Source of the DNA: Candidatus Acidulodesulfobacterium acidiphilum
GTDB taxonomy: Bacteria > SZUA-79 > Acidulodesulfobacterales > Acidulodesulfobacteraceae
Assembly (NCBI GenBank): GCA_008534395.1
Contig: SHMQ01000035.1
Coordinates: forward strand, 1-23,084
Direction of reading: 5' to 3'
Length of the DNA: 23,084 nt
Shown here: piece by piece, positions 1 through 21,450 of the stretch
Layout of the letters: each line of letters starts with the position of its first letter
Position numbering within the stretch: position 1 is the stretch's first letter
Notes under the pieces: generated by a model
What the model was told of the DNA's origin: nothing
What the model saw: the letters and a program-made list of their open reading frames with translations, nothing else
Databases searched by the model: none
Translations under genes and position numbers: made by a program

Positions 1-916
1 TTATTTTTATTATTGCATATATAAACGCTCCGATAAGAAATATGTATATAAAGGGAGTAATGACCAGAACCTGGCCGAGCCAGCCGGCTAAAAGAAGCGG
101 CAAACCCGGGGTAGGATGGGAAAAACCGTGCGAAAGCTGAAACCTGAAAGAAATAAAATTATGGACGGCATTCCAGTATATAACGGGCGAAAATATCAAA
201 AGAGCGGCGGCAAGCGTCATGTAGGGATAAAAAGTTTTGAGATAATGCCTGTTTTGCTTGGAAAGAAGCAGGTATAACAGAGCGGCGGGCGGAATAAGGG
301 CGGCGGTATATTTGCTAAGGAAAGCGAGTCCGAGGAAGATGCCGGAGAGGAGCCAATAAACAAAAGGGACAGATTTATTTATTTCCGTCGAGCCGCTTGA
401 TAAATTTTGCTTTTCGTTGCGGAAATAAAAAAGATCTGCCCCTTTTGTTTCGGCATTTTTTTCCGCCGCTTTATAGAAAAAAATAAAAAATAACAGAGTA
501 AAGAATAAAAGCGGGGCGTCGGGAAGCATCATAACGGAAAGAACAATGCCGAATATGACGGCGGCAAGATAAAAAAGAAACGAGAAAAAAGCGGCGCGTT
601 TGCTTTTAAATAAAATATAAGTCAGATAATATATTAAAAATCCGTCGAAAAAAGAAAATACGACGGAGCCGAGACGGACGGAAAGCTGACTTTTGCCGAA
701 AAGAGCGTCCGTAAGGTATATAATCCAGCCGGCAAAAGGGGCGTCGTCGAGATAACCGAGAGACGGCTTTAAAGACCACGCATAGTAGTGGGCTTCGTCG
801 TTGCCGAGGTTTAAGGTGGACGCAAGATGAATGTGGACTATCAGGGCAAAAAGAGAAACGAGGATTAAATAAATCTCGTATTTATATTTGTTATATTTTT
901 TTATAAACGAACTCAA
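1..916 (-). CDS. ArnT/PMT-type membrane glycosyltransferase, 3' end beyond window
   Basis: An open frame of 305 codons runs off the left edge with no stop. Family members move a sugar from a polyprenyl-phosphate carrier to a lipid or protein on the periplasmic side of the inner membrane. A first transmembrane segment lies at about residues 14-31. It is followed by [10 protein letters not shown] (39-48) and [11 protein letters not shown], the acidic first periplasmic loop typical of the PMT_2/ArnT group, and then more hydrophobic segments. I chose a TTG start at 914-916. It overlaps the rpoS TGA and has AGGA just upstream, and no ATG occurs in the frame before about residue 129, so this start is uncertain. 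Residues roughly 156-186 are a hydrophilic insert encoded by a palindromic repeat (see 358-450); without it the loop would have the short length usual in the family. The substrate cannot be told. Confidence 0.8.
358..450. repeat. Family II palindromic element, copy A, inside a coding gene
   Basis: The left arm (358-387) and right arm (420-450) are inverted repeats of about 30 nt with a few mismatches and one indel, around a 32-nt loop. The outer part pairs AAACAAAAGGG with the complement of CCCCTTTTGTTT. Inside it lies a CAGAT(t/c)T-T/A-rich segment ending in TTTCCG. Size, arm length and internal motif match copy B at 21361-21450. The element is 93 nt, exactly 31 codons, and is read through in frame by the glycosyltransferase. 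The outer motif resembles REP sequences linked to RAYT (IS200/IS605-like) transposases; that link is from memory and unverified. Confidence 0.75.
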
Positions 917-6166: not shown

Positions 6167-6195
6167 ACGGTGCCGGAATTGAATTACGGCACCGT
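6167..6195. repeat. Family I hairpin repeat, copy R1
   Basis: Nine-base-pair perfect arms ACGGTGCCG / CGGCACCGT (6167-6175, 6187-6195) enclose GAATTGAATTA. It lies between the LolB-like gene and bamD. No T-run follows on the transcribed strand, so it does not look like an intrinsic terminator. Confidence 0.85.
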
Positions 6196-21294: not shown

Positions 21295-21321
21295 GTTTTA
21301 AATTAGGGGGGATGATTAAAA

Positions 21322-21350
21322 ACGGGGAAGGAATTCAATTCTGCCCTCTG
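21322..21350. repeat. Family I hairpin repeat, copy R10
   Basis: Core GGAATTCAATTC with weak outer arms (GGGG / CCCT). It sits immediately left of the Family II element, inside what looks like that element's outer arm. Confidence 0.65.
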
Positions 21351-21360
21351 CATGGATAGC

Positions 21361-21450
21361 AGAAAAAGGTGTCAGATTAATTTTACGCAACACATTGATA
21401 GTTAATTGCTGTTTTCCATATGCGTAAAATAAAATCTGACACCTTTTTCT
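21361..21450. repeat. Family II palindromic element, copy B
   Basis: Arms at 21361-21389 and 21421-21450 are inverted repeats with one indel and about two mismatches, around a 31-nt loop. The outer arms are AGAAAAAGGTGTCAGATT and its complement, and the inner arms end in TTTTACGCA / TGCGTAAAA. Architecture (29/31/30) matches copy A (30/32/31), with shared AAAAGG..CAGATT and T/A-rich parts. Confidence 0.85.

Follow-up and report, generated by a model that had tools for sequence, protein, structure and literature searches.

The GTAG/CGTC-tagged intragenic REPs are short palindromes, often present as inverted dimers, that contribute 20-30 residues in frame to conserved genes, sometimes as two copies per gene; dnaE is among their targets, and REPs flank RAYT genes (Di Nocera et al. 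2013, PMC3733652). Single-copy RAYT genes with adjacent REPs also accompany the REPINs, hairpin-forming inverted REP doublets which are overwhelmingly extragenic (Bertels and Rainey 2011, PMC3116915), and in the Marinomonas REPtrons REPs are clustered near tnpA (PMC8266576). The RPEs are palindromes of ~105-146 bp that lie in frame in conserved proteins and are tolerated there (Ogata et al. 2000 as reviewed, PMC2229807); their arms are reported to lose identity over time (PMC6649704). Perfect inverted repeats within coding sequence are also found in Nematomorpha mitochondria, for which template switching has been proposed (PMC6649704).

The element reported here lies in the window, by which we mean the whole analysed stretch of 23,084 nucleotides from Candidatus Acidulodesulfobacterium acidiphilum (contig SHMQ01000035.1). 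It shares with the GTAG/CGTC REPs the in-frame palindromes, dnaE as a target and a RAYT with flanking REPs. It differs from them in that a single gene is struck in three loops across the genus and in that the flanks are palindromic copy by copy; by eye, no GTAG/CGTC tag was seen at the palindrome foot in the window element or in the RAYT-adjacent arms. Like the REPINs, it belongs with short palindromic repeats in many copies per genome (~45 of class A, plus class B arms and class C; see below), has inverted doublets folding as a hairpin and is associated with a single-copy RAYT with adjacent REPs; in contrast to them, class B is often found inside genes. The resemblance to RPEs suggested by the sequence-only reading is one of behaviour alone (in frame and tolerated), shared sequence not being expected: the window element is not a Rickettsia RPE, since its arms match REP-like repeats beside RAYT transposases, and several arms here are perfect and extended, unlike the decaying arms of RPEs. 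The Nematomorpha palindromes differ in arising from the conserved gene sequence itself, whereas the arms here are common to the scattered copies of one repeat. REPs lying in frame within genes, dnaE among them and sometimes as pairs in a single gene (PMC3733652), are already known, as are RPEs (PMC2229807); what is new is an untagged REP family, the reuse of three loops of one gene across a genus, and palindromic extension into host sequence.

The palindrome in the glycosyltransferase gene and its classes

The features at the host gene are:
2..916, minus strand: ORF for the N-terminal 305 aa of a PMT_2/ArnT-like glycosyltransferase (GT), cut at the contig end, with the remainder in contig G000:C34
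358..450, no strand: in-frame palindromic element of class B, an inverted REP-like arm pair with a ~47-nt centre, at about residues 156-186 of the GT
361..386, plus strand: REP-like arm 1, CAAAAGGGACAGATTTATTTATTTCC
421..447, minus strand: REP-like arm 2, inverted, reading CAAAAGGGGCAGATCTTTTTTATTTCC on the minus strand
No coordinates: the class B REP-like arm as a single strand, AATAAAGGGGACAGATTTATTTATT

The host gene is recognized by Pfam PMT_2 at 1.5e-29, with PMT also matching. Its ORF resumes in G000:C34 (L064 4306-3347, minus strand; G000 being the genome of the window), which overlaps window positions 1-126 with 100% identity and encodes, at GT loop 2, a second in-frame fragment of the window element. 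The 93-nt palindrome at 358-450 has arms (358-380 and 428-450) that are 87% complementary, and its fold energy is -37.5 kcal/mol against -15.9 +/- 2.9 for shuffles (z -7.4, 0/200 shuffles). It is stop-free in the frame of the GT gene (minus-strand ORF 916..2), in which it encodes ~31 residues, and a stop is present in both remaining sense frames; the earlier claim of a palindromic element in frame inside this gene is hence confirmed. It consists of REP-like arms in an inverted pair with the arm motif AAAGGGGACAGATTTATTTATT, and the end of arm 1, tested using the L140 copy, is identical to the RAYT-adjacent REP singlets of relatives (100% over 24-29 nt). The window protein and a relative that carries several inserts were modelled with AlphaFold at a mean pLDDT of ~50, and only the helix/coil pattern was drawn on: at this low confidence loop 1 is a predicted coil with helices 134-156 and 185-200 on either side, which agrees with the proposed placement of the insert at a loop between hydrophobic segments, these being two predicted membrane helices. 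No PDB relative was found by sequence.

At least three palindrome types, which we term class A, class B and class C, are present in the genome. Two further features of the window belong to the first and the last of these:
21363..21448, no strand: class A intergenic palindrome, GAAAAAGGTGTCAGATT..AATCTGACACCTTTTTC, one of ~45 copies
21321..21346, no strand: degenerate class C palindrome adjoining the class A copy, read from sequence

Class A arms have the form GAAAAAGGTGTCAGATTAATTTT, with the ~45 copies in the own genome being counted by pattern match. When flanks are scored for complementarity between the two sides, class A has sharp ends: complementarity extends 2 nt only, and beyond this the sides are not complementary. 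Pairing in class A stems is preserved via compensatory changes, one pair being AT in 23, CG in 8, TA in 3 and GC in 1 of 35 copies. A typical class A copy has stops in 5/6 frames, and an in-frame census covering ~90 of the places in the own genome found none inside a credible gene. The intergenic palindrome, which the sequence-only reading had placed at 21361-21450 and likened to the window element, does have the same architecture; it is, however, of a separate subfamily, and its true coordinates are 21363-21448.

Class B is the type of the window gene (AAAGGGGACAGATTT...AAATCTGTCCCCTTT). The minimal form is open in every frame, reading as KGTDFKSVPF, KGDRFQICPL or RGQISNLSP. Lone single-arm matches within own-genome ORFs (L029, L124, L135) were rejected as chance matches or poor ORFs. 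The intact form of class C is GGGACAGAATTSAATTCTGTCCC, with ~20 copies in the genome; L126 97-271 (G000:C30) contains five consecutive class C palindromes (GGGACAGAATTCAATTCTGTCCC and variants) at a 38-base spacing, and a scan of G014 with the palindrome pattern gave 36 forward matches, nearly all of those listed being class C. Elsewhere in the window, at 6167-6195, a palindrome with 14-base arms (ACGGTGCCGGAATT/AATTACGGCACCGT) separates two lipoprotein-like ORFs and is perhaps a terminator or another repeat.

Loop contents in orthologues and copies in other genes

In an orthologue alignment spanning the genus and the family, the window GT has 47 residues between fixed anchors, against 21 in G014 (L088) and 23 in G012 and G018 (L089, L093). 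Such empty or short-linker orthologues support a repeat-derived in-frame insertion; the 31 codons said to be added are the stop-free length of the palindrome, but the net gain over these orthologues is just 24-26 codons. Short linkers, as had been expected for the family, are also seen in the distant homologues L097, L099 and L115, and no distant homologue with a homologous segment of the same length was found among them. Other relatives have filled loops: a minimal palindrome in G001, G005 and G013, longer palindromes in G004 and G009, decayed forms in G002, and an unrelated palindromic repeat coding RRGVGRRPTG in G008, G011, G009 and G015. This last repeat is absent from the own-genome loci examined. 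A palindromic repeat coding LLRRGVGRRPTG, unrelated to class B and likewise absent from those loci, fills GT loops 1 and 2 of several relatives in L103, L105, L106, L107, L108, L110 and L111. Because the contents vary in this manner across orthologues, loop 1 is a site that gains and loses palindromic repeats rather than one that a repeat entered in a single clean event. The notion of a clean, recent and exact insertion with a matching alignment gap is accordingly not sustained: the linker is hypervariable in the genus, and what relatives have there ranges from shorter palindromes and decayed arms to an unrelated palindromic repeat. For the same reason the insertion ends of the window element, as judged from the alignment, are approximate, and the empty site is too variable for a call of target duplication.

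A copy of 88 nt, 92% identical to the window element, lies at loop 2 of the GT gene in G009, a second species. The GT genes of the window and G009 are 53% identical at four-fold sites and 66-80% identical in flanking windows; given a gene-wide identity of ~0.75, the 81/88 matches have a probability of ~4e-5. Since the element is so much more similar than the host at four-fold sites, it must have moved or been copied recently between positions and genomes. The flanking windows around loop 2 have no raised identity of the kind expected of a recombination tract. Related fragments of the element are present at both loops 1 and 2 in G000 and G002. The full 88-nt form was found in the GT genes of four genomes only and not outside GT genes, a pattern that transposition and copying, be it from loop to loop or from one GT allele to another, explain equally well.

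Across the 16 genus genomes, 24/90 exact class B arms lie in the GT gene (1.85 kb), where 0.1 are expected; 7/90 lie in the adjacent kinase-like gene and 12/90 near RAYT. The GT gene holds 12/68 arm clusters (P ~2e-23, the clusters not being fully independent) and 9/19 of the two-arm class B clusters in the genus. Beyond the genus, the 25-nt palindrome core is found in 17/386 genomes: 12/16 in the genus, one from another genus of the family, and four from unrelated families. The search for more in-frame copies that the initial interpretation had called for was thus fruitful outside GT loop 2 too, namely in the kinase-like gene, in dnaE and probably in lysS. The dnaE gene of G004 carries an in-frame copy that is lacking from 13/13 other recovered dnaE genes, their sole difference being a variable linker; the in-frame copy in lysS of the same genome is probably at the gene start, the true start codon being uncertain. 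The unrelated genome G198 (L286-L290) has the 25-nt palindrome 8 times, with several copies inside ORFs. In-frame ones are found in a cytochrome b-like ORF and near the N-terminus of a substrate-binding-protein ORF, and another copy is in a universal stress protein-like ORF.

The RAYT neighbourhood and proposed palindrome growth

In 5/6 relatives read, the gene for a RAYT (Y1, HUH) transposase has REP arms at a distance of 10-260 nt, and in G003, G004 and G009 arms identical to those of the window element crowd this gene; no REP arms are present on C68, the 3.2-kb contig with the RAYT of the own genome. The RAYT proteins are 245-268 aa long and score 69 bits, below the NCBIfam cut-off of 80 bits. 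No RAYT was detected in the palindrome-rich G013. The distance between RAYT and GT is 3.5-5 kb in G002, G004 and G009 (3.5 kb in G002). G004 and G009 have GT, the kinase-like gene and RAYT side by side, and in G000 RAYT adjoins the kinase-like gene. This latter gene, which has no NCBIfam match, is situated between a sigma factor and GT in G002:C84, G004:C25 and G009:C31, and is relocated beside RAYT in G000:C68 and G005:C18; in G003 and G013 (L136, L149) it contains in-frame palindromes of the KGTDFKSVPF type. The distribution of arms would be compatible with local hopping from RAYT, but tolerant loops would by themselves explain it too, given that the same loops also house an unrelated repeat.

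The flanks of class B elements beyond the shared core vary between copies and are complementary within each copy: palindromy runs on past the core by 4.6 nt on average, compared with 0.76 when the partners are shuffled, the highest value in 2000 shuffles being 2.0. At loop 1 of G013 the host codons AAAGCGGTGGAAAA (KAVE) are duplicated inverted on the opposite side, and G002 has these codons without that copy. Fold-back template switching is known from E. coli and yeast (PMC7202029, PMC3820800), and such an inverted copy of host codons is its expected mark. Based on this one clear case and the flank statistic, we infer that the palindromes may have grown by template switching.

Several other explanations are to be weighed against these data. 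A chance palindrome within an ordinary diverged linker can practically be dismissed: every relative has a variable linker, but the z of -7.4 speaks against chance and the homologous copies elsewhere already exclude it. Selection of the hairpin for a role in the GT mRNA or DNA, for instance in attenuation or as a protein-binding site, would account for arms that remain perfectly complementary in several species whose host sequences have diverged widely; yet several orthologues have no hairpin, or a decayed or unrelated repeat in its place, and unrelated genes carry the same palindrome, so that we regard such a role as very improbable.

The spread itself can be read in two further ways. There may have been no transposition into the GT gene, but one ancestral gain of a REP arm followed by local template switching and by recombination between loops or GT alleles of co-occurring species. 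The confinement of the 88-nt form to GT genes, the inverted flanks specific to each copy and the related fragments in loops 1 and 2 alike in G000 and G002 would suit such a history, which we nevertheless consider unlikely: the same core in dnaE, lysS, the kinase-like gene, intergenic spaces and four unrelated families indicates that the palindrome does spread, and no rise in identity near loop 2 marks a recombination tract. Alternatively, some agent besides RAYT could mobilize the palindrome, for example an unknown transposase or a fold-back replication error, in the manner of MITEs or RPEs. The many copies in G013, where RAYT went undetected, and the own RAYT contig devoid of REPs point this way, as does the precedent that, to our knowledge, RPE-type elements have no known transposase; the crowding of RAYT by arms identical to those of the window element in three genomes argues against it, and we give this alternative a lesser but real chance.

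A probable REPIN-like origin and its meaning

The explanation we prefer, and think probable, is that a REPIN-like mobile palindrome entered a tolerant GT loop, was translated as a disordered linker and was later remodelled, with RAYT as its putative mover. Two inverted REP-like arms would have inserted into the loop between two GT membrane helices. A RAYT/IS200-like Y1 (HUH) transposase, encoded near GT in several relatives, would move the hairpin in single-stranded form, and its moves would often be short. Selection would then retain frame-keeping loop insertions, which are readily available as the minimal palindrome (KGTDFKSVPF) is stop-free in any frame. After insertion the centre may be lost and the arms may decay, or the arms may be lengthened through fold-back template switching, by which flanking host sequence is copied inverted. 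Apart from being tolerated, the insert most likely serves no function. More speculatively, and with doubt outweighing belief, the system could be a local engine of loop diversity, in which RAYT seeds nearby genes, palindromes grow by inverted copying of host codons, and GT loops are rewritten repeatedly across the genus.

A mobile repeat has repeatedly been turned into new protein sequence in the same few GT loops of related organisms. The GT family over 16 related genomes constitutes a natural series, from empty sites through fresh, perfect palindromes to ones with a collapsed centre or with decayed arms, and it also shows the same element at two positions. In-frame REPs and RPEs were previously scattered curiosities; this series makes the entry, growth and decay of palindromes inside proteins directly testable, and may link the position of RAYT to the sites at which insertions land.
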